Source: Fulvivirga lutimaris (GTDB lineage Bacteria; Bacteroidota; Bacteroidia; Cytophagales; Cyclobacteriaceae). Taken from it: DNA of 37,899 nucleotides. The stretch lies in assembly GCF_009711525.1 (NCBI RefSeq), contig NZ_SMLV01000412.1:1-37899 (forward strand), written 5' to 3'. Position 1 is the stretch's first letter, and every line of letters starts with the position of its first letter. Below are positions 19,009 through 37,899 of the stretch, piece after piece. The notes below the pieces were generated by a model. That model saw only the letters and a list, made by a program, of their open reading frames with translations, made no database searches and was not told the DNA's origin. A program made the translations under genes and the position numbers.

Positions 19009-20838
19009 ATGCATCATCTAAAAATCAATCAAATATTAATAACAATACTGTTTTTAGTATTTATTTCTGGCTGTGCTGAAAAAGAAAAACCTGTAGTAGA
19101 TCAGAGCGAAGCCATTAATGCCTGGCTTGACGAAAAGTACGAAGAAGAGCTTCAGCAAAGTCCAATTACACTCACTTTTTTGGGCCGGAAAGATATATAT
19201 GACAAACTGGATGACATGAGCGAAGAGGCAGAGGAAAAGCAACTTGCATGGATGGCCTCCACTGTAGAAGAGCTAAAAACTACATTTGATTATGAAAACT
19301 TAAATGCAGATGACAAGCTCTCTTATGACCTTTGGGTATATCGTTATGAGTTAAGAAAGGAAGGCTCGGCCTTTAGAAATATGGATTATATCTATGATCA
19401 AATGAGGTCAGTACATACACAACTGCCCAACCTACTTATTAATCTTCATAGGGTTGATAGTGTGGCCGATATGAAAAATTATACATCAAGAATTTCCGAG
19501 TTAGGTCGTGCTATAAATCAATTAACCGAACGTGCAAAAAAGCAGGCAGCAGAAGGCATTATTCCTCCAAAGTTCTCTTTTGAAATAACCATAACACAAA
19601 CGGAAGCGTTGCTAGACGGCTACCCCTTTAATGATTCGGATAAAAATTCCCCATTATGGAATGATATTTCCGGTAAAGTAGATGCCTTACAAAATAAAAA
19701 CGAAATAGGCACTGAAGAAGCCAATATGTTAAAAACCAATGCAGAGCTGGCATTAACCAAACATTTTAAACCAGCTTATGACAACTTGCTGCAATGGTTT
19801 CAAAAGGAAATGGCTAATGCTGAAGAAGCCCCTACTGGTGTTAGCAGACATGCCAATGGTGCGGATTTTTATAATTACAAGTTAAAACAAATGACCACTA
19901 CCGATCTTACAGCAGAGGAAATACATGAGATAGGTCTGAAAGAAGTGGCTCGGATTCAGGAAGAAATGATGGCTATAAAAAATCAGGTAGGTTTTGAAGG
20001 CACTCTAAAAGAGTTTTTTGAATTTGTGAATACAGATCCACAATTTTTCTACCCCAATACAGATGAGGGTCGACAGGCATATCTAGATGATTCCAAAATG
20101 TTTTTAGATTCTATTTCAGCCAAGCTACCTGACTTTTTTGGCATCTTACCAAAGGCACAATTAGAGGTAAAACGTGTTGAGGCCTTTAGAGAGCAGGATG
20201 GCGCACCACAGCATTACCGACAGGGCACAGCTGATGGCTCAAGACCGGGAACTTATTATGTTCACCTGTCTGATATGAACAGTATGCCAAAATCAACTAT
20301 GGAGGGTGTAGCCTATCATGAGGGTAACCCAGGCCACCATATGCAAATATCTATTGCTCAGGAATTAGAATCAGTACCACAGTTTAGAAGGCAAAGTGAG
20401 TACAATGCCTATGTAGAAGGTTGGGCTTTGTATTCTGAAGTAGTAGCCAAAGAGATGGGTGGATACAAAAATCCGTATTATGATTTTGGCAGATTAGTAA
20501 ATGAAATATGGAGGGCCATAAGGCTGGTAGTGGATACAGGATTACATGCTAAAGGCTGGACAGAAGAAGACGGCATAAAGTATTTTAAAGAAAATTCTTC
20601 TATAGCCGATGGCGCCATTAAAGCAGAGGTAAGAAGGTATATGGTAATGCCGGGCCAGGCCACAGGCTATAAAATAGGCATGCTAAAGATACAAGAACTA
20701 AGAGCCAAAGCGGAGGAAGCACTTGGTGATAAATTTGATATCAGGGCGTTTCATGACACTGTTATAGGTGGGGGTGCCATGCCATTGTCAATCTTAGAAA
20801 AACATGTCGACCGCTGGATTGAATCACAGAAGATTTAA
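19009..20838 (+). CDS. DUF885-family metallopeptidase lipoprotein
   Basis: This 609-residue lipoprotein uses the start at 19009. The in-frame start at 18940 overlaps the previous gene's stop and would add 23 residues ahead of a clear lipoprotein signal with C22 (FISGC). It is mainly helical and carries the DUF885 zinc-peptidase motif H437-E-G-N-P-G-H443-H in YHEGNPGHHMQ, followed by the conserved YVEGWALYSE. The length is typical of the family. DUF885 proteins are thought to be extracytoplasmic peptidases or dipeptidases, often of peptide scavenging. It may share an operon with the amidohydrolase, transglutaminase-like and LolA-like genes upstream, all on the plus strand. Confidence 0.9.
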   Translation: MHHLKINQILITILFLVFISGCAEKEKPVVDQSEAINAWLDEKYEEELQQSPITLTFLGRKDIYDKLDDMSEEAEEKQLAWMASTVEELKTTFDYENLNADDKLSYDLWVYRYELRKEGSAFRNMDYIYDQMRSVHTQLPNLLINLHRVDSVADMKNYTSRISELGRAINQLTERAKKQAAEGIIPPKFSFEITITQTEALLDGYPFNDSDKNSPLWNDISGKVDALQNKNEIGTEEANMLKTNAELALTKHFKPAYDNLLQWFQKEMANAEEAPTGVSRHANGADFYNYKLKQMTTTDLTAEEIHEIGLKEVARIQEEMMAIKNQVGFEGTLKEFFEFVNTDPQFFYPNTDEGRQAYLDDSKMFLDSISAKLPDFFGILPKAQLEVKRVEAFREQDGAPQHYRQGTADGSRPGTYYVHLSDMNSMPKSTMEGVAYHEGNPGHHMQISIAQELESVPQFRRQSEYNAYVEGWALYSEVVAKEMGGYKNPYYDFGRLVNEIWRAIRLVVDTGLHAKGWTEEDGIKYFKENSSIADGAIKAEVRRYMVMPGQATGYKIGMLKIQELRAKAEEALGDKFDIRAFHDTVIGGGAMPLSILEKHVDRWIESQKI

Positions 20839-20860
20839 TTAATACAGCTATATAAAACAC

Positions 20861-20911
20861 AAGGCCAGAAGTTTTCTTAATGATTCAATGAGAAGATTTC
20901 TGGCCTTTTCA
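20861..20911 (+). terminator. Rho-independent terminator after the DUF885 gene
   Basis: AAGGCCAGAA and TTCTGGCCTT form a perfect ten-base stem with a 27-base loop, in which a shorter TTTTCTT/GAGAAGA pairing can form, followed by TTTTC. It starts 22 bases beyond the DUF885 stop. This is the best intrinsic terminator in the window. Confidence 0.75.
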
Positions 20912-20942
20912 TATCCAATCGTAGGTAGATTGAGACAAGAAG

Positions 20943-21014
20943 AGAGTAAATGAGAAAGGAGAAATATTATATCTCAGAGCTTCATATGAGTATAGCGGTT
21001 TTGAAATCGCATAA
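20943..21014 (+). pseudogene. 24-codon remnant of a second LolA-like lipoprotein gene
   Basis: In frame with a stop at 21012-21014 the DNA reads RVNEKGEILYLRASYEYSGF and EIA. This is nearly identical, in DNA and protein, to the last codons of the lipoprotein gene at 18167-18943 (RVNEKGEVLYLRASYEYSNF). Upstream of 20943 the similarity fades within about 15 bases and the frame meets stops. The fragment is a tail of a lost paralog, left between the terminator of the DUF885 gene and the DMT exporter start. It points to an old duplication or a recombination event around the DUF885 gene. It cannot be translated on its own from an obvious start. Confidence 0.75.
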
Positions 21015-24378: not shown

Positions 24379-24466
24379 GTTTCTGAAATTCATACATCTT
24401 CCATCAGGGCACTCATTAATGACTTAACCCCAATCATCTATATCTAAAATATTAACCCTTCTTCCA

Positions 24467-24498
24467 ATTGCATTCCTCAGTTGTTGCTGGTAAATTTA
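24467..24498 (+). promoter_or_regulatory. Candidate Bacteroidota-type promoter for the formate dehydrogenase operon
   Basis: ATTG at 24467-24470 (near the TTTG minus-33 consensus) and TAAATTTA at 24491-24498 (near TAnnTTTG) are separated by 20 bases, matching the known Bacteroidota sigma-A layout. The start of transcription would lie near 24505. The left outer arm of the nested inverted repeat overlaps the minus-7 element. Confidence 0.4.
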
Positions 24499-24547
24499 GT
24501 AGTCAAAATACGCCTTTGAAGTTATTTCAAAGGTTTGCACTACTAAA
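24495..24547. promoter_or_regulatory. Nested inverted repeat ahead of the formate dehydrogenase operon
   Basis: Two perfect inverted repeats are nested. The inner one is CCTTTGAA (24513-24520) and TTCAAAGG (24526-24533) with a five-base loop GTTAT. The outer one is TTTAGTAG (24495-24502) and CTACTAAA (24540-24547), with 10 and 6 unpaired bases between the stems. The right outer arm ends eight bases before the ATG. As DNA it could be a compound operator; as RNA the inner stem would form a stable hairpin in the leader. The two readings are not settled by the sequence. Confidence 0.6.
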
Positions 24548-24555
24548 ACTGCAGC

Positions 24556-26205
24556 ATGTCTAAAAATTTAAGTGAATTATCTGGCCGTAAAGGAGTTGTC
24601 GATAACCTGTTTGAGAAAATGGGGCAGCTGGCTTCTGAATCAGGCACCCCAGAAAAAGCAGATCTTGATGCCCTGGCCAAGGAGTTTCTCATCGGAAAAT
24701 CCTCCACCTACGGCACTACCACTTTCTATGATTTTATGAAGCCCGAAAACAAGGGCAAGAAAGTGTATGTCTGTAATGGTTCGGCTTGCCTTTGTGCCGG
24801 CACGCAACAGGAAGTTCACGATGCGTTGTTAAAGAAATTTAAAGCCGATGAAATTGGCCACATGACCTGCCTGGGTCGCTGTCATGAAAATGGGGCGTTC
24901 CATTATAATGGCACCAACTACTCAGCTAAGTCGGCATCAGAAATTGATAATATCATCAATACAAAAGCACCTGCAAAGGATTTCTACAATGTGGTGAGTG
25001 ACAACCCTGTGCTTACGGCTCCATACGAAGGCTTTGATGCACACTATGCTTTCTTAAAAGATGCATTAGCAAAATCACGCGAAGCAATATTAGAAGAAAT
25101 TAAAACCTCGTCCATTCGTGGTCGTGGTGGTGCCGGCTTCCCTATGGGATTTAAGCTGGAGAGCTGCAAAAAAGAAGAAAACGATACTAAATTCATTATC
25201 TGTAATGCCGATGAAGGTGATCCCGGAGCTTATTCCGATCGCTATTTACTGGAAGAACGACCTCATTCTGTGCTATTTGGGATGATGATAGCGGGCTATG
25301 TAACAGGCGCAACCTGGGGCATTGTGTATATCCGTGGAGAATATCCTGAATCCGTCACCATTGTAGAAAATGCCATCAATGAGCTGCGAGAGAATGGCTA
25401 TTTAGGAGAGAATATATTAGGTAAAGATTTTAGCTTTGATCTGAAAGTTATCCGTGCGCAGGGTGCTTATATCTGTGGGGAAGAAACAGCATTAATCAAC
25501 TCTATAGAAGGGCAGCGCCCGGAAGTGCGTACTCGTCCGCCCTTCCCTACCACGCAAGGCTTGTTCAACAAACCCACCGTGGTAAACAATGTGGAAACAT
25601 TGGCCGCGCTGCACTACATTATTAAAAATGGTGGCAAAGCCTATAAAGCATTGGGCACCGAAAAATCGGCCGGAACGAAGCTCATCTGCTGCGATAGTTT
25701 CTTCAATAACCCGGGCATCTACGAAGTAGAAATGGGTACACCCTTATCTAAGGTTGTGCACGAAATGGCGGGTGGATTCAAAAAACCTGTTAAAGCATTA
25801 CATATTGGCGGTCCATTAGGCGGCATTGTACCGGTAGATAAAATCAAAGACCTGAATGTAGATTTTGAGTCTTTTGCCATCAATGGCTTCTTGTTAGGTC
25901 ATGCGTCTGTGGTAAGTATTCCGGAAGACTTCCCTATGATTAAATATTTAGAGCATCTGTTTGAGTTCGCCTCATTTGAGAGCTGTGGAAAGTGCTTCCC
26001 ATGTCGCTTAGGCACAAAAAGAGCCCACGAAATGTTACAGAAGTCAGCGGATAGTGATTATAAAATCTCGAGAGAATTATTTGATGATTTATTATCTACC
26101 CTACAGCAGGGCAGCTTGTGCGCACATGGTGGTGGCATTCCACTTCCGGCAAAAAATGCACTGCAGTATTTTGGTGATGAATTGAATAAACATTTTGAAA
26201 AATAG
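24556..26205 (+). CDS. NAD-dependent formate dehydrogenase, fused NuoE/NuoF-like diaphorase subunit (FdsG-FdsB type)
   Basis: This 549-residue cytoplasmic protein passes electrons from the catalytic subunit to NAD+. Residues ~1-150 are a thioredoxin-like [2Fe-2S] NuoE/FdsG domain with the Cys set C73, C78 (CNGSACLC), C105 and C109 (CLGRCHENG). Residues ~165-549 are the NuoF/FdsB part: GRGGAGFPMGFK and ADEGDPGAYSDR for FMN and NAD, GAYICGEETALINSIEG, and the [4Fe-4S] motif SCGKCFPCRLG with the fourth Cys in GSLCAHGGG. FdsG and FdsB are separate proteins in the classic Fds enzyme, so the fusion is a notable feature. The gene starts in front of the catalytic subunit with a three-base gap, giving a two-gene operon. 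Confidence 0.9.
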   Translation: MSKNLSELSGRKGVVDNLFEKMGQLASESGTPEKADLDALAKEFLIGKSSTYGTTTFYDFMKPENKGKKVYVCNGSACLCAGTQQEVHDALLKKFKADEIGHMTCLGRCHENGAFHYNGTNYSAKSASEIDNIINTKAPAKDFYNVVSDNPVLTAPYEGFDAHYAFLKDALAKSREAILEEIKTSSIRGRGGAGFPMGFKLESCKKEENDTKFIICNADEGDPGAYSDRYLLEERPHSVLFGMMIAGYVTGATWGIVYIRGEYPESVTIVENAINELRENGYLGENILGKDFSFDLKVIRAQGAYICGEETALINSIEGQRPEVRTRPPFPTTQGLFNKPTVVNNVETLAALHYIIKNGGKAYKALGTEKSAGTKLICCDSFFNNPGIYEVEMGTPLSKVVHEMAGGFKKPVKALHIGGPLGGIVPVDKIKDLNVDFESFAINGFLLGHASVVSIPEDFPMIKYLEHLFEFASFESCGKCFPCRLGTKRAHEMLQKSADSDYKISRELFDDLLSTLQQGSLCAHGGGIPLPAKNALQYFGDELNKHFEK

Positions 26206-26208
26206 GAT

Positions 26209-28932
26209 ATGAGTAAGGTAGCATACATCAACGACAAGGCTTATCCCATTCATGAAGGTGAAACAATGCTTTCATTCTTAAAACGACATCAAGGCGAGAA
26301 ATCCGTTCCCACCTTATGCGATGCACCTAACCTGGAGCCTTTCGGCAGCTGTAGGGTGTGCAGCGTAGATGTGGCATTGCAGAAGGATGGTAAAACAAAA
26401 GCCATGGCCAGCTGCCATAGCCCCATGCAGGAAGGGATGTACCTCTACCCTGACTCGCCTAATATCCAAAAGCTTAGAAAAAACATTATAGAGCTCGTAC
26501 TTACAGACCATCCACTAGACTGCCTCACCTGTGAGGTAAATGGCAACTGCGAATTGCAGGATGTAGCTGCAAGTGTAGGTATTAGAGATGTGCGCTACCC
26601 TGAAGGTGAAACACACCTCCAACGAGAAAAAGACCTTTCTCACCCTTACATGACTTCCGATTTATCGAAGTGCATCAACTGCTATCGTTGTGTGCGTGCG
26701 TGTGATGAAGTGCAGGGTGAATTTGTATTGAACATGGCTGGCCGTGGGTTTGATAGCCACATCATCAAAGGAAATGATCAGTCTTTCAAAGAATCTGACT
26801 GTGTAAGTTGTGGTGCTTGTGCGCAGGCCTGCCCAACATCCGCCATAAGTGATGTATTTGAATCTAAGTCAGTAGCTAAAGCGGACAAAACCAGAACCGT
26901 TTGTACTTATTGCGGTGTGGGTTGTAACCTGGAGGTTTCTACCAAAAACGGTGAGATATTATCCATTCAGGCACCTTATGATGCTGCTGCCAATGGTGGT
27001 CATACTTGCCTTAAAGGGCGATATGCATTTAAATTCTACAACCATCCTGACAGACTAAGAACGCCATTGATCAAACGTAATGGTAAGTTCGAAGAAGCTA
27101 CCTGGGATGAAGCTTATGATTTTATCACCGACAAATTCAAACAGCTTATCGCTGATCATGGTCCGGACTCGATAGCTGGAATATCTTCTGCGCGTACACC
27201 TAATGAGGAAAATTACCTCATGCAGAAGTTTATGCGTGCGGTGGTGGGTACAAATAATATTGACTGCTGTGCGAGAGTATGCCACTCTCCTACTGCTTTG
27301 GGCATGCAGCGTGCCTTTGGTACAGGTGCTGCTACCAACTCTATTGACGATCTAAACTATACCGATTGTATTATCGTGATTGGTGCCAACCCAACAGATG
27401 CCCACCCGGTAACAGGTGCTAAAATCAAGCAGAAGTTGATGAAGGGCACGTTAGGAATTGTTATCGATCCTAGGAAGATTGAATTGGCAAAATATGCCAA
27501 ATACCACTTACAGCTTCGTCCGGGTACGAATGTCGCGCTATTGAACATGATGCTGTATTACATCATCACGGAAGATGTGATGGATAAAGACTTTGTGGCA
27601 AAAAGAACGGAAGGATTTGAAGAGTTTAAACAGGAAATTCTGAAACTCGATATGGATGAGCTGGCAGCCATCACAGGTGTAGATAAAGACTTGGTAAAAG
27701 AAGCGAGTTTGGCGTATGCTAATGCTAATGCTGCCATGGAATTCCATGGACTGGGTGTTACAGAGCACAGCCAGGGTACATTTACCGTTCAGTTGATTGC
27801 TGATTTGGCCATGATTACCGGAAATGTAGGTAAGCGAGGTGCCGGAATGAACCCACTTAGAGGACAAAATAATGTGCAGGGTGCTGCGGATATGGGGGCG
27901 CAGCCACATCAGGGTGCCGGTTATTTGGATGTGACCAATCCGGAGATCAATGCTCGATACAATACCTTCTATAATGCAAAGGTTCCAAGTCATATCGGTT
28001 ATAAAATTCCTGAAATGTTTGATGCGGCCATCAAAGGCGATCTTAAAGCATTGTGGCTGATAGGTGAAGATGTGGTACAAACCGATCCTAACACACAAAA
28101 GGTAATGAAGGCCATGGATAGTCTGGAGCTTTTGGTTGTGCAGGAAATCTTTATGACAGAAACTGCTAAGCATGCTACCGTAATCTTGCCGGGTGCTTCC
28201 TTCCTTGAGAAGAATGGCACGTTTACCAATGGTGAACGCAGGGTGCAGCGTGTAAAGAAAGTGGTAGAGCCATTGGAAGGCACCAAGCCAGATGGTGAAA
28301 TCATAGTTGATTTAATGAATAGAATGGGTTATCCTCAACCGCCTTACACACCAGAGGGAATGTTGGAAGAGATTTCGCAGATCGTACCCTTCTTTATGGG
28401 CATTACCTGGGATAATTTAGGTGATAATGGCTTACAGTGGCCGGTATTTGAAGGCGGCAAAGATACTCCTATGCTGCATATCAAAGAGTTCAAACGAGGA
28501 TTAGGCAAGTTCACTTTCCAAAACTTCAAAGAATCTACAGAAGTAGAAACGCACGGTAAGGATTATCCTTATATCATTACTACTAACCGGGAGCTGGAGC
28601 ATTACAATTGCGGTACGATGACACGTAGAACAGGTAATGTGGACATCCTTACAGAAGATGTGTTGCTCATCAACCCTAAAGATGCAGCAGAAAATATGAT
28701 TGAAGACGGCCAGATGGTTTGTGTAGAATCACCGAGAGGCAAAGTAGATATTAAAGCCTTTGTTACTGATGAAGTAAAACCGGGTGTGATGAGCTCAACT
28801 TTCCACTTCCCTGAAATTATGCTCAATAACATTACCAGCGATGTGCATGACAGCGAAGCCATGTGCCCGGAATACAAAGTGGTGATGTGTAGGGTGAGAA
28901 AGAGTAAGGGGAAGTATAAGCAGTTGGTATAA
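26209..28932 (+). CDS. Molybdenum/tungsten formate dehydrogenase catalytic subunit (FdsA/FdhF type)
   Basis: This 907-residue protein oxidises formate to CO2 at a bis-pyranopterin Mo or W site. In order it has an N-terminal [2Fe-2S] domain (C37, C48, C51, C69), a NuoG-like His/Cys cluster (DHPLDCLTCEVNGNC), two ferredoxin-type clusters (CINCYRCVRAC and CVSCGACAQACPT), a proximal cluster (CTYCGVGC...CLKGR), and the molybdopterin domain. The metal ligand is C358 followed by H359 (RVCHSPTALG), with Cys in place of selenocysteine. R551 in NPLRGQNNVQG is the formate-positioning Arg. There is no Tat signal, so the enzyme is cytoplasmic. No FdsC/FdhD sulfurtransferase or FdsD lies beside it. MoCo assembly would have to be encoded elsewhere. 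Confidence 0.93.
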   Translation: MSKVAYINDKAYPIHEGETMLSFLKRHQGEKSVPTLCDAPNLEPFGSCRVCSVDVALQKDGKTKAMASCHSPMQEGMYLYPDSPNIQKLRKNIIELVLTDHPLDCLTCEVNGNCELQDVAASVGIRDVRYPEGETHLQREKDLSHPYMTSDLSKCINCYRCVRACDEVQGEFVLNMAGRGFDSHIIKGNDQSFKESDCVSCGACAQACPTSAISDVFESKSVAKADKTRTVCTYCGVGCNLEVSTKNGEILSIQAPYDAAANGGHTCLKGRYAFKFYNHPDRLRTPLIKRNGKFEEATWDEAYDFITDKFKQLIADHGPDSIAGISSARTPNEENYLMQKFMRAVVGTNNIDCCARVCHSPTALGMQRAFGTGAATNSIDDLNYTDCIIVIGANPTDAHPVTGAKIKQKLMKGTLGIVIDPRKIELAKYAKYHLQLRPGTNVALLNMMLYYIITEDVMDKDFVAKRTEGFEEFKQEILKLDMDELAAITGVDKDLVKEASLAYANANAAMEFHGLGVTEHSQGTFTVQLIADLAMITGNVGKRGAGMNPLRGQNNVQGAADMGAQPHQGAGYLDVTNPEINARYNTFYNAKVPSHIGYKIPEMFDAAIKGDLKALWLIGEDVVQTDPNTQKVMKAMDSLELLVVQEIFMTETAKHATVILPGASFLEKNGTFTNGERRVQRVKKVVEPLEGTKPDGEIIVDLMNRMGYPQPPYTPEGMLEEISQIVPFFMGITWDNLGDNGLQWPVFEGGKDTPMLHIKEFKRGLGKFTFQNFKESTEVETHGKDYPYIITTNRELEHYNCGTMTRRTGNVDILTEDVLLINPKDAAENMIEDGQMVCVESPRGKVDIKAFVTDEVKPGVMSSTFHFPEIMLNNITSDVHDSEAMCPEYKVVMCRVRKSKGKYKQLV

Positions 28933-28988
28933 GAGTTAATTAACTGAAATATCTTCCTAGTTTACAATTTATTGTCATAATAGTTATT

Positions 28989-29015
28989 AGCATGGGATTC
29001 TTTTTTCTCCATGCT
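28989..29015. other. Hairpin in the gap after formate dehydrogenase
   Basis: AGCATGG and CCATGCT form a perfect seven-base stem with a 13-base loop that itself holds six T. It lies between two convergent genes. The T-run is in the loop, so it is not a standard terminator. The rest of the 214-base gap shows nothing I can call. Confidence 0.3.
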
Positions 29016-29146
29016 GATAAAGTACAAACAATAAAGGTTTGTTACCAGAATGAACAGTAATGTTGATTGGCTCACCTTAGTCAAATATCAGATTCGTGTT
29101 CTGCCTTCTGTGCATTTTCATATAGGCTATTAAACGGTTTACTACT

Positions 29147-33491: not shown

Positions 33492-34241
33492 ATGAAAAAA
33501 GGAAAAATTCTCATTGTTGAAGACAATAAAATTACCGCTAAACACTTAGCAACAACACTTCAAAAATTTGACTATGAAGTTACAGGTTGTGTTGATTCAC
33601 TTGAAAATGTTAAAAGTAGCATAGTTAAATCATGTCCTGATTTGGTTATACTCGACATCAATTTGGGAGGAGATTTTGATGGTGTTCAAATAGCTCAAGT
33701 CCTTAGATTAGAATTTGAAATACCTTACCTCTTTCTAACCTCACTTAATGATCAGGAGACAATAAATAGGATCATTCAAGCACAACCATTTGGTTATATC
33801 GTGAAGCCATTTGACACTGATAATTTACAAGCAGTAGTTGATCTTGCCATTTACAAGGCTAAAAGAAGAAATGATTTAATGAGCATAGATTCTAATCATA
33901 CTGTAAATAAGAGTGATTTGGATGAATTGAAAAACTATATTTTCGTCAAGAATGGGAGCAATATTGATAGGGTATTTATTCCCAATATTGAGTTTGTTGA
34001 GGCTGATGGTAGATATACCTATATTCATTTCCAAGGTCAAAAAAAGATTAGCAACGCTCCTCTAAAAGTGCTTAAGGAGAAGCTTCAAGGACGACATTTT
34101 ATCCAGACCCACCGTTCGTATATTGTCAATGTTACAAAAGTGGATACAATTACATTCAATTATCTTAATGTTGGTAAACATGAGGTACCCATTGGTAAGA
34201 CCTATCGAAGTGATTTACTAAATGGGCTGGAAGTTATTTAG
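33492..34241 (+). CDS. LytTR-family response regulator
   Basis: This 249-residue response regulator has a receiver domain (1-125) with E10-D11 in ILIVEDN, phospho-acceptor D55 in LVILDINLGG and K105 in GYIVKPFDT. After a linker comes a LytTR DNA-binding domain (~145-249) with IFVKNGSNIDRVFIPNIEFV, DGRYTYIHF and FIQTHRSYIVNVTKV. It lies 100 bases before the large propeller kinase on the same strand, and the two very likely form a pair. A HisKA-type propeller kinase paired with a separate LytTR regulator is less usual than the fused AraC-type hybrids. It is clearly different in sequence from the regulator at 6558-7271. Confidence 0.92.
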   Translation: MKKGKILIVEDNKITAKHLATTLQKFDYEVTGCVDSLENVKSSIVKSCPDLVILDINLGGDFDGVQIAQVLRLEFEIPYLFLTSLNDQETINRIIQAQPFGYIVKPFDTDNLQAVVDLAIYKAKRRNDLMSIDSNHTVNKSDLDELKNYIFVKNGSNIDRVFIPNIEFVEADGRYTYIHFQGQKKISNAPLKVLKEKLQGRHFIQTHRSYIVNVTKVDTITFNYLNVGKHEVPIGKTYRSDLLNGLEVI

Positions 34242-34341
34242 CCAAACTATCAATAATATCCTTTTCCTAATTATTTGTCTTAACTAAAGTATTTTTTGAA
34301 GAATTACTAATTTAAGAGTAATAATAAGAATCAGCCACTTC

Positions 34342-37300
34342 ATGATACAACAGGTCAAGTATATTCTCGTCATTTTGTTATTAGCAATTTTTGAAAATAT
34401 AAATGCACAGAAAGTAACTAGATTTGATATTGATACAATACCTAGCAATATTCCCGGGCAGAATGGATGGTCATTACCAACCACGGTATTGGCCCAATCA
34501 CCTAAAATTACCCCTTACTCTCTGGCACCCATTAAGATTCAGCCAAAAGTAACACCTATTGATTTTGAAAAATTAACATCAAATACTCCCGGTAAGAACG
34601 GGTTCTCATTTCCAAAGACATATAAAGTTCCTAAAGAAGGATTTCTTGTGTATGAAAACGATACAATTTACGCTCCCGTCAAAGTAAAGGCGAAAGCTCC
34701 AGAGATTAAAAGAGCATTGGAATTCAGACATAAGGATAACACCGCCTTCGATATTCAGTACTTAGATGTTGACCAGAATATGCCTAGTTCTAACATTCAA
34801 ACAATTGTATTTGATGATAAACAAAATGTTTGGTTTGGCACCTATCAGGGCAAGTTTGCAAGATATGACGGTAATAATTTCTATGTATATGGAGTTAAAC
34901 AGGGTTTCGACTGTAATAGCGTCAAGGAAATTATGATTGATAGTAAAGGAAATTTGTGGTTTGGAACCACCCTTGGTGGATTAATAATGTTTGATGGAGA
35001 CACGTTTACCTATTTTAAAGAAGAGCAAGGCTTTACAGAGCGCAACGTAATGGTTATTTACGAAGACAAGAAGGGGGCAATTTGGGTTGGATCCTACCTG
35101 GGTGGGCTTTGGCATTATGATGGAGAAAATGTAACCAGATACACGACAAAAGAAGGATTACCTAGCAATGATATTCAAGATATTGTGGAGGATGATAATG
35201 GAACTATTTGGATAGCCACGAGAGGAGGTGTTTGCTCATTTGATGGTGTTTCATTTACACCTATAACTTCGGAAAATGGATTATCTAACAATATGTGTTA
35301 TTCAATATCTATTGATGCAAACAAAGATATTTGGATAGGTACAAATGATGGGTTTAATATTTATAAACCCGATAAAATTGTTTCATATTCATCAGAAACT
35401 GATTTGAAAAAAATAGAATATCGAACTATACATCATGATGAAGACGGTATCACTTGGTTAGGTTCGAATGGTGCTGGCCTTATTAAGTTTGATGGAGAAC
35501 AAATTGAAATTATCGATATAAATTCAGGACTTACCAATGATGTTATATTTGATATTGCTCAAGATTTTAATGGCAATTTTTGGATAGCAACATATGGCGG
35601 AGGATTGTGCAAATTCAGGCCAAATTCATTTACACATCTTACTTCTGAACAAGGTCTATTTTCTTCAGTCCCTTTATGTATTAATCAGGACAATGCTGGA
35701 GACATGTGGTTCACTACATTTTTAGTGGGAGTTACCCGATTTAATGGCAAAACATTTGAAACATATTCAAAATTTGTGGAACAGGAAAATTCGGTATGTA
35801 CAATTCATCAAGATCATTCTGGTAATTATTGGATGGGCACCATGAATGGTTTAGTAGTATTTGATGGTAAGAAATTTACTAGATATACTACAGAAAATGG
35901 TTTTACAGACAATCGAGTATTTTCAATATATGAAAGTGAAAATCATGATATTTGGTTTGGTACATTCAGAGGCGTCTCTAAATATGATGGTAAAAGCTTC
36001 AAAACGTTCAATGAAAATCATGGATTAAGTAAGGACTTAACCCTTTGTATAACTGAGGACAAGCAAGGGAATATGTGGTTTGGCACATTTGATGGCGTTG
36101 CCAAAATAGAAGAAGATCGTTTGACATTATATACTGAAAAGGATGGATTACCACACAAAGTTGTTCGTTGCATATTGACTGATGGTCATGGAAATATTTG
36201 GGCTGGTACAGACGGAGGTCTTGTATTAATAGCAGATGATAAAGATGGGGCAGTTATTAAAGAATACACAGATAATGACATAATTACTGGTAACACGATT
36301 TTATCATTAATAGAAGACTCTAAGGGCAGGTTATGGGTAGGTACAGAAGTAGGTATAGTTTGTTTAAGTATTGATGATAATAAAGCCATTACAACATTAG
36401 CTAATTTTACCCAGCTTGATGGACTGCTAAATGGGTTAGATGTTGTGCAAAATTCAGTGCATGAGGATGATAATGGGGTTCTTTGGTGGGGAATGGGCAA
36501 AGGAATAACTCGACTTGATCTAGATAAATTTGTTATCCAAGAAAATGAACCACAAATCCAACTTAACAAAGTAGATATAAATGGTAGTGAAGTTAATTAT
36601 CATGTAATATCAGACAGCATTGCATATAATTTTGATCTTGGGTTGACTTTTGATTCAATAGCAAGGTTCTATGAATATCCTTTAAACCCAGTGTTTTCCC
36701 ATGACAATAACTATCTTACTTTTCATTATTCAGCAATAGATTTGACTGACCCAAAAAGTATGACATATAATTACATGCTTAATGGTTTTGATGACAAATG
36801 GAATTCTACAGCAGAAACCTATGCCGAATATAGAAACCTACCTGGTGGGGATTATACTTTTAAAGTAAAAGCAATTAATAAAGCCAACAAATGGAGCGAA
36901 ACATTTGAATATCAATTTAAAGTTCTCCCTCCATGGTATTTAGAATGGTGGGCGTTTGTAGTGTATGCTATAATAGGCATAGGAATTATATATGTTATTA
37001 TTCGCTTGAATTCACTGCGTCTAAAACAGCTAAACCTACAATTAGAGAAAACAGTAGCTGAGCGTACCGAGGAACTTAGGGTTACAAATGAAAAACTTTT
37101 GGAGCTGGATAAGTTCAAAGAAGGGTTAACAGGAATGATCGTTCATGATTTAAAAAACCCACTTAATGGAATTATCAATGTATCTAACTCTTATACAATT
37201 AATGAGCAGGTGTACCGCATGAAGGAGTTCGGTAAGCAGGTATTAAATATGGTAGTCAATATTCTCGATGTTCATAAATATGAGGATACTAAAATGGTAC

Positions 37301-37899
37301 CTGATAAATCAGTAGTTTCCTTAAATGACATTATACAAAGTGCCATTGCCGATACAGAATTTTTATTAAATGAAAAGGGCGTATCTGTTAAAGCCAAAAT
37401 AGAGAAGGCATACAATATCAATGTTGATAAGAAGCTAATTATTCGTGTTTTTGTTAATCTTTTAACCAATGCAATTAAATATTCTAAAGCGGGTGATGTA
37501 ATATTTATTAATGTCAGCGAAGATAATGATGATCAAATCAGGGTTGAAATCAGTGATTCTGGCCAAGGTATACCTCAAGATCAAGTAGACAAAATATTTG
37601 ATAAATTTGTTCAAATCAGTGCTAAAGACTCAGGCAAAATACGTTCAACGGGATTAGGTCTAACATTTTGCAAAATGGCAATTGAATCGCACAATGGTAA
37701 TATTGGTGTTATTTCCGAAGTAAATAAAGGAACTACATTTTGGTTCGTTCTTTCCTTACACTCTGTTGAGGATAGCTCTTCGTTAAGTATCAATAGTAGC
37801 ATAGACTCAAACGAAATTAAGTTAACGCAACCATCAAAACAGGCAATTAAACCGGTAGCACTATTAATTGAAAAACATAGATTTTATGAAATTACCGAA
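34342..37899 (+). CDS. Two-component propeller (reg_prop) sensor histidine kinase, 3' end outside the window
   Basis: The frame is open for 1186 codons to the last base, so the C-terminus is missing. A signal peptide (cleavage near INAQ) is followed by a short linker that holds two copies of an IPGQNGW/TPGKNGF motif. Then come 14 reg_prop repeats from about residue 154 to 735, each with the form I-D-GN-W-GT--G. Fourteen repeats would fold into two seven-bladed propellers. A Y_Y_Y domain (~780-863) ends in the helix WAFVVYAIIGIGIIYVI (~870-890). A coiled coil leads to the HisKA motif MIVHDLKNPLNGI with H935. The HATPase domain has N1043, D1072 in SDSGQGIP and STGLGL near 1104. It senses extracellular or periplasmic cues and probably phosphorylates the preceding LytTR regulator. 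Confidence 0.92.
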   Translation, partial: MIQQVKYILVILLLAIFENINAQKVTRFDIDTIPSNIPGQNGWSLPTTVLAQSPKITPYSLAPIKIQPKVTPIDFEKLTSNTPGKNGFSFPKTYKVPKEGFLVYENDTIYAPVKVKAKAPEIKRALEFRHKDNTAFDIQYLDVDQNMPSSNIQTIVFDDKQNVWFGTYQGKFARYDGNNFYVYGVKQGFDCNSVKEIMIDSKGNLWFGTTLGGLIMFDGDTFTYFKEEQGFTERNVMVIYEDKKGAIWVGSYLGGLWHYDGENVTRYTTKEGLPSNDIQDIVEDDNGTIWIATRGGVCSFDGVSFTPITSENGLSNNMCYSISIDANKDIWIGTNDGFNIYKPDKIVSYSSETDLKKIEYRTIHHDEDGITWLGSNGAGLIKFDGEQIEIIDINSGLTNDVIFDIAQDFNGNFWIATYGGGLCKFRPNSFTHLTSEQGLFSSVPLCINQDNAGDMWFTTFLVGVTRFNGKTFETYSKFVEQENSVCTIHQDHSGNYWMGTMNGLVVFDGKKFTRYTTENGFTDNRVFSIYESENHDIWFGTFRGVSKYDGKSFKTFNENHGLSKDLTLCITEDKQGNMWFGTFDGVAKIEEDRLTLYTEKDGLPHKVVRCILTDGHGNIWAGTDGGLVLIADDKDGAVIKEYTDNDIITGNTILSLIEDSKGRLWVGTEVGIVCLSIDDNKAITTLANFTQLDGLLNGLDVVQNSVHEDDNGVLWWGMGKGITRLDLDKFVIQENEPQIQLNKVDINGSEVNYHVISDSIAYNFDLGLTFDSIARFYEYPLNPVFSHDNNYLTFHYSAIDLTDPKSMTYNYMLNGFDDKWNSTAETYAEYRNLPGGDYTFKVKAINKANKWSETFEYQFKVLPPWYLEWWAFVVYAIIGIGIIYVIIRLNSLRLKQLNLQLEKTVAERTEELRVTNEKLLELDKFKEGLTGMIVHDLKNPLNGIINVSNSYTINEQVYRMKEFGKQVLNMVVNILDVHKYEDTKMVPDKSVVSLNDIIQSAIADTEFLLNEKGVSVKAKIEKAYNINVDKKLIIRVFVNLLTNAIKYSKAGDVIFINVSEDNDDQIRVEISDSGQGIPQDQVDKIFDKFVQISAKDSGKIRSTGLGLTFCKMAIESHNGNIGVISEVNKGTTFWFVLSLHSVEDSSSLSINSSIDSNEIKLTQPSKQAIKPVALLIEKHRFYEITE

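Follow-up and report, generated by a model that had tools for sequence, protein, structure and literature searches.

A one-sidedly conserved leader box within a nested inverted repeat at the putative promoter of a formate dehydrogenase operon in Fulvivirga lutimaris

The region in front of a formate dehydrogenase (fdh) operon of Fulvivirga lutimaris carries two nested perfect inverted repeats, which we tentatively read as a sigma-A-type promoter followed by a lineage-specific conserved, operator-like box for a putative regulator, the nested symmetry being partly coincidental. This account, which in our estimate falls just short of being probable, is drawn from sequence comparison: conservation of the nest is one-sided, with mainly its right half preserved in the closest relative, the uncultured Fulvivirga sp. 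of locus L026. All positions refer to the window, the whole stretch of 37,899 nucleotides analysed, and its relevant features are as follows.

24466..24478, plus strand: upstream promoter block AATTGCATTCCTC, identical in L026, with ATTG (24467-24470) at putative -36 to -33
24491..24498, plus strand: minus-7-like box TAAATTTA (consensus TAHHTTTG, last G replaced by A); GGTAAATTTAGTA is identical in L026
24495..24502, plus strand: left outer arm TTTAGTAG, at putative -8 to -1, first 7 bases kept in L026
24503..24505, plus strand: probable transcription start zone, placed by the position of the minus-7 box
24513..24520, plus strand: left inner arm CCTTTGAA, aligned with CCTTGACG in L026
24521..24547, plus strand: conserved leader box GTTATTTCAAAGGTTTGCACTACTAAA, 27 nt, at putative +19 to +45, containing both right arms
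24526..24533, plus strand: right inner arm TTCAAAGG, with the loop GTTAT between the inner arms
24540..24547, plus strand: right outer arm CTACTAAA, separated by 8 nt from the ATG at 24556, last 7 bases kept in L026
24556..26205, plus strand: operon gene 1, NuoE/NuoF-like NAD-side subunit of formate dehydrogenase (NuoF and NuoE model matches below curated cut-offs)
26209..28932, plus strand: operon gene 2, formate dehydrogenase alpha subunit (TIGR01591, 795.8 bits, cut-off 666.25)

The initial annotation described these repeats correctly in sequence and position, both arm pairs being perfect, and its placement of them over the promoter and leader of formate dehydrogenase genes is supported; the operon is of the NAD type and comprises two genes. 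Genes for FdhD and for a MoaA-type protein lie at other places in the same genome. The first gene of the operon was absent from the 14 congeneric genomes searched at E 1e-50 and present in 44 of 390 family genomes at 1e-150 (the window's own genome counted); a search for closer orthologues at 1e-260, covering 390 genomes from the order, returned only its own copy, and none was found on the plasmids searched at 1e-100. A contig scan for relatives yielded 58 loci, the best of which was L026 (87% protein identity), so that a gene missing in 14 congeners is nevertheless found in a Fulvivirga record, there with a different upstream neighbour. Such patchy presence of the operon (24556-28932), judged by its first gene, suggests transfer or repeated loss. 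A partial gene in locus L020 lies directly 3' of an fdhD-like end and has no such leader. Thirteen of the 44 gene-bearing family genomes gave no locus and their leaders are outside the survey, and four of 91 loci without a clear start (L072, L082, L085 and L092) were left out of the leader folding; the remaining 87 leaders, the window's included, were reduced to 74 by removal of near-duplicates, some loci representing the same genome twice (e.g., L003 and L051).

Among the fdh leaders inspected, only that of L026 could be aligned with the window, and the element is thus known in two species, its conservation footprint resting on one sequence comparison. Because the upstream neighbours of the two loci differ, a shared neighbourhood is not the cause of the similarity. 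Four-fold degenerate sites compared between the two operons are identical at 76 of 196 and 135 of 346 positions (39%), which places silent positions near saturation. Against this baseline, the leader box (GTTATTTCAAAGGTTTGCA-n-TACTAAA) is identical at 26 of 27 positions and keeps the same 8-nt gap to the ATG, a binomial probability of 1.5e-8 even if the baseline is set at 45%. Identity amounts to 30/37 in the promoter block (24466-24502), to 12/19 alignment columns between it and the box (24503-24520), to 36/104 columns in the DNA upstream of the promoter block, and to 3/8 in the last bases before the ATG. Within the first 20 codons, 13 of 18 synonymous codons are identical, and 122 of 1272 windows reach or surpass this value; the coding start is therefore not exceptionally conserved. 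It follows from these segment identities that the conserved units are a promoter-like block and the 27-base box, the left inner arm being less so. The box itself has little internal symmetry, only a weak dyad CAAA-GG-TTTG. Of the two functions proposed at the outset, an operator or an RNA switch responsive to formate, molybdenum or redox state, the operator is reasonable because of the contrast between 26/27 identity and 39% at four-fold sites, and since mainly the right half is preserved, a promoter of the usual kind, flanked by a short site for a bound protein, is likelier than a folded RNA switch. A link with formate, molybdenum or redox comes only from the gene that follows the element.

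The promoter can be described in some detail. The box TAAATTTA fits seven of the eight positions of TAHHTTTG, with A in place of G at -5, and is preceded by ATTG and N20, both motifs lying in blocks conserved in L026; as the initial annotation had it, the left outer arm overlaps this plausible minus-7 box (24491-24498 and 24495-24502). In the sections of the Flavobacterium johnsoniae study drawn on here (PMC6847099), the minus-7 box TAHHTTTG spans -12 to -5, the minus-33 consensus is TTTG, and the G at -5 is nearly invariant. Where the minus-7 box stands, read with this geometry, would put the start near 24503 and make the leader about 53 bases long; F. psychrophilum leaders have an average length of 65 and a median of 24 according to the part of PMC9723704 used here. 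If the promoter is placed correctly, the left outer arm lies at -8 to -1 and is probably untranscribed, and the outer arms therefore cannot pair as an RNA stem. The promoter assignment is of moderate strength because the minus-7 box alone is no commoner than chance, either in the window (TAHHTTTRG 11 times, 13.6 expected) or in the 74 leaders (TAHHTTTR in 17, 12.1 expected; TAHHTTTG in 6, 4.6 expected). The bipartite motif TTG-N18-21-TAHHTTTR occurs in five of the 74 leaders (1.03 expected), among which the window and L026, and L036 and L044, are related pairs. The same TAAATTTA also stands 4 bases before the ATG of fdhD in this genome.

On the favoured reading, a Bacteroidetes-type promoter recognised by the primary sigma factor (ATTG-N20-TAAATTTA) would start the transcript near 24503 and give it a leader of roughly 50 nt, in which the 27-nt box, at about +19 to +45 and 8 nt from the ATG, appears to be under strong purifying selection. 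The box would act as a DNA operator rather than as RNA, and a putative protein bound there may hinder promoter clearance or elongation and so adjust fdh expression, whereas the perfect inner hairpin would be largely a feature of the window species, overlying one half of the box.

How much weight the symmetry itself deserves is a separate matter. The idea that it arose by chance in AT-rich leader DNA, the repeats being functionless, is possible although we think it rather unlikely, and it is compatible with the favoured reading, so that the two do not compete for the same probability. A nest (perfect 8-bp repeats, inner loop of 3-12, outer arms at most 40 nt from the inner ones, starts less than 70 apart) occurs once in the window; in 200 dinucleotide shuffles of the window the mean was 0.115, with at least one nest in 23 of them. 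Single 8-bp repeats were as frequent as expected (8 observed, 7.8 expected), and a perfect 8-bp hairpin was present in four of the 74 fdh leaders against 1.8 expected, at four different sequences. The claim that two such repeats are unlikely to be chance was thus overstated at the scale of the window: the nested symmetry is noteworthy, yet not compelling alone, and although its occurrence in this particular promoter region is rarer, the region was chosen post hoc. Chance, however, accounts for the symmetry only and leaves the 26/27 conserved block unexplained. The stretch 34242-37899, mostly a reading frame open at the contig end, was mistakenly counted in the 'intergenic' set, which affects the listing of z-scores but not the count of nested repeats.

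An RNA hairpin in the leader, formed by the inner stem and perhaps also the outer one and controlling translation or mRNA stability of fdh, is in our view somewhat improbable. In its favour, the RNA of the 81-nt region 24490-24570 is predicted to fold strongly (-22.1 kcal/mol, z -4.35, none of 200 shuffles as stable), and for F. psychrophilum the part of PMC9723704 used here reports 64 5' regions that are structured and probably regulatory. The transcribed part alone is still more stable than most shuffles in the window (-12.1 kcal/mol, z -2.26, 5 of 200 shuffles as good); the corresponding leader of L026 does not fold above shuffles (-6.4 kcal/mol, z +0.55, 139 of 200 as good). The initial annotation suggested looking for compensatory changes in sister species; between the window and L026 none of the 16 pairs is compensated: 11 are invariant, which is uninformative either way, 4 are broken and 1 becomes G-U, so that 4 of the 5 varying pairs are lost (in the outer helix 7 pairs are invariant and 1 is broken; in the inner helix 4 stay the same, 3 are broken and 1 goes from A-U to G-U). 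This test has low power because it involves two sequences only, and although 87.5% of cells pair in the nested structure as against 31-56% in slid versions, a high share is expected because the window served as the source of the structure. The transcript would probably also lack the left outer arm. An RNA role is thereby lowered, not removed, because an inner stem with a bulge and some G-U pairs can still form in L026 at the corresponding position.

Searches with structural models point the same way. Rfam gave no match in the window at the gathering threshold and none in the leader at a relaxed one (E 5), a single chance-level match lying outside it. A model built from the two leaders and run against 89 sources scored strongly only for the window and L026; the element's own minus strand reached E 0.035 and all others E 0.83 or worse, among them L054 (525-592, E 2.1), which overlies the fdh start of that locus and is best read as chance. 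The same model found nothing in 18 further loci (L010-L023 and four Pelagibacteraceae loci), and over both searches it had no other significant match among 105 other loci; in 15 genomes of the genus it recovered the window's copy and a single further place, at E 0.8, the 14 congeners being without a significant match. The other fdh leaders share no common hairpin. In L099, from another family member, a strong hairpin of unrelated sequence (TACGGCATTGCA...TGCAATGCCGTA, z -5.4) lies about 52 nt before the fdh start. Taken with the absence of compensation and the L026 fold, these results weaken the RNA-switch half of the original proposal. Elsewhere in the window, a hairpin at 20850-20945 (-32.8 kcal/mol, z -6.2; GGCCAGAA...TTCTGGCC followed by TTTT) after an ORF ending at 20838 is probably a terminator, and a stable hairpin at 28960-29060, between the fdh alpha gene and a convergent gene and with low z on both strands, is probably a two-way terminator. 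The stretch 33492-37899 encodes a LytTR response regulator and then a large sensor-like protein, open at the contig end, in which repeated propeller-type motifs and a histidine-kinase-like end were read by eye.

The box could also be conserved for translation initiation, as the region through which the ribosome approaches an mRNA without a Shine-Dalgarno sequence. The constant distance of 8 nt between box and ATG in both species would fit, as would the need of initiation in F. johnsoniae for upstream bases and low structure, described in the portion of PMC6847099 drawn on here. We nevertheless regard this as improbable: conservation is poor in the 8 nt that adjoin the ATG, the A at -3 is G in L026, and the box extends to -35 relative to the ATG, with no A at -12 or -13. 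Less probable still is that TTTAGTA, over the minus-7 and start region, and TACTAAA, next to the ATG, are paired sites of one DNA-binding protein bridging or looping the promoter, for although both are intact in both species, with their inner ends bounded by the changed bases 24502 and 24540, and the exact 8-mer pair at 15-45 nt occurs once in the whole 4.86-Mb genome, their spacing shifts from 39 to 40 between the species and the left copy, since it belongs to the promoter, would be kept in any case. Four further candidates were rejected, three of them by eye: an intrinsic terminator or attenuator, the stem being followed by TTTGCACTA without a U-run (GGTTTGCACTA), which also tells against a hairpin function of that kind; a leader peptide, since the frame that crosses the box in the window meets a stop just upstream and lacks a start in L026; a minus-strand promoter over the box (AACCTTTG), which has a mismatch at the nearly invariant -12 and no TTTG upstream; and a sigma-54 site, the GG/GC spacing being absent.

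If the box is read by a regulator, further copies might mark other target genes, as the initial annotation envisaged for the inner repeat near metabolic genes. No regulon is visible. CTTTGAA-N5-TTCAAAG with at most two mismatches occurs at 60 places in the whole genome (29 for a reversed control), and the places opened, all four with one mismatch and three of the 55 with two, lie within reading frames. The box in the form TTTCAAAGGTTTGCANTA with at most three mismatches occurs at 43 places (control 28); of the three opened, two lie inside reading frames, and the single one-mismatch place (L125, 1501-1518) reads TTTCAAACGTTTGCAATA, a near-perfect dyad with central CG inside a GTG-started frame, more likely the leader of a secreted glycoside-hydrolase-like gene, recognised by eye, than coding. 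In the 390 family genomes, TTATTTCAAAGGTTTGCANTACTAAA was found at three places besides its own (control 3), two in reading frames and one between frames (L159). Searched for in 58 relatives, the leader DNA gave, apart from itself, a single match (E 7e-4), which falls within a reading frame, and the fdhD and moaA stretches, parts of which were masked, held no copy with fewer than three mismatches. None of the near copies opened thus stands clearly before another promoter.

In our judgement the control of formate oxidation in Bacteroidota seems little studied; the literature searches on it listed no paper on the topic, judged by titles and the opening of abstracts. Here, a conserved box in a defined place could serve as bait for finding the regulator. 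It is conceivable, if speculative, that the element is an undescribed control element in which a putative regulator reads the lineage-specific 27-nt box, perhaps with the TTTAGTA/TACTAAA arms gripping both the start region and the zone through which the ribosome approaches, and thereby makes fdh expression in Fulvivirga-like bacteria depend on formate or redox state. More generally, a palindrome that catches the eye in a single genome can turn out to be a minor addition to a site whose conservation is one-sided.

Several known systems invite comparison. In having a folded leader before a molybdenum-enzyme operon, the element recalls the structured flavobacterial 5' leaders and the molybdenum-cofactor riboswitch; the window element, however, shows neither an Rfam match nor covariation. 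Operators of the FNR/Crp type have the form TTGAT-N4-ATCAA, with inverted TTGA/TCAA spaced by 6 nt. Inverted TTGA and TCAA half-sites near the formate dehydrogenase promoter are likewise present in both species, but they stand 7 nt apart in the window and 8 nt apart in L026, a distance neither equal to 6 nor constant. Operators of the LacI family are dyads with a central CG, and the dyad of L125 resembles such a site. The TTTCAAA-nn-TTTGCA in the box resembles the one-mismatch genome site TTTCAAACGTTTGCA before the likely sugar-hydrolase gene of that locus, although both species have GG in place of CG at its centre and the gene is of a different class. Finally, the promoter of the Bacteroidetes primary sigma factor (sigma-ABfr) has minus-33 TTTG and minus-7 TAnnTTTG elements; relative to a start site that is itself only putative, the window has A, not G, at -5, and in window and L026 alike 20 nt separate ATTG at -36 to -33 from TAAATTTA at -12 to -5.
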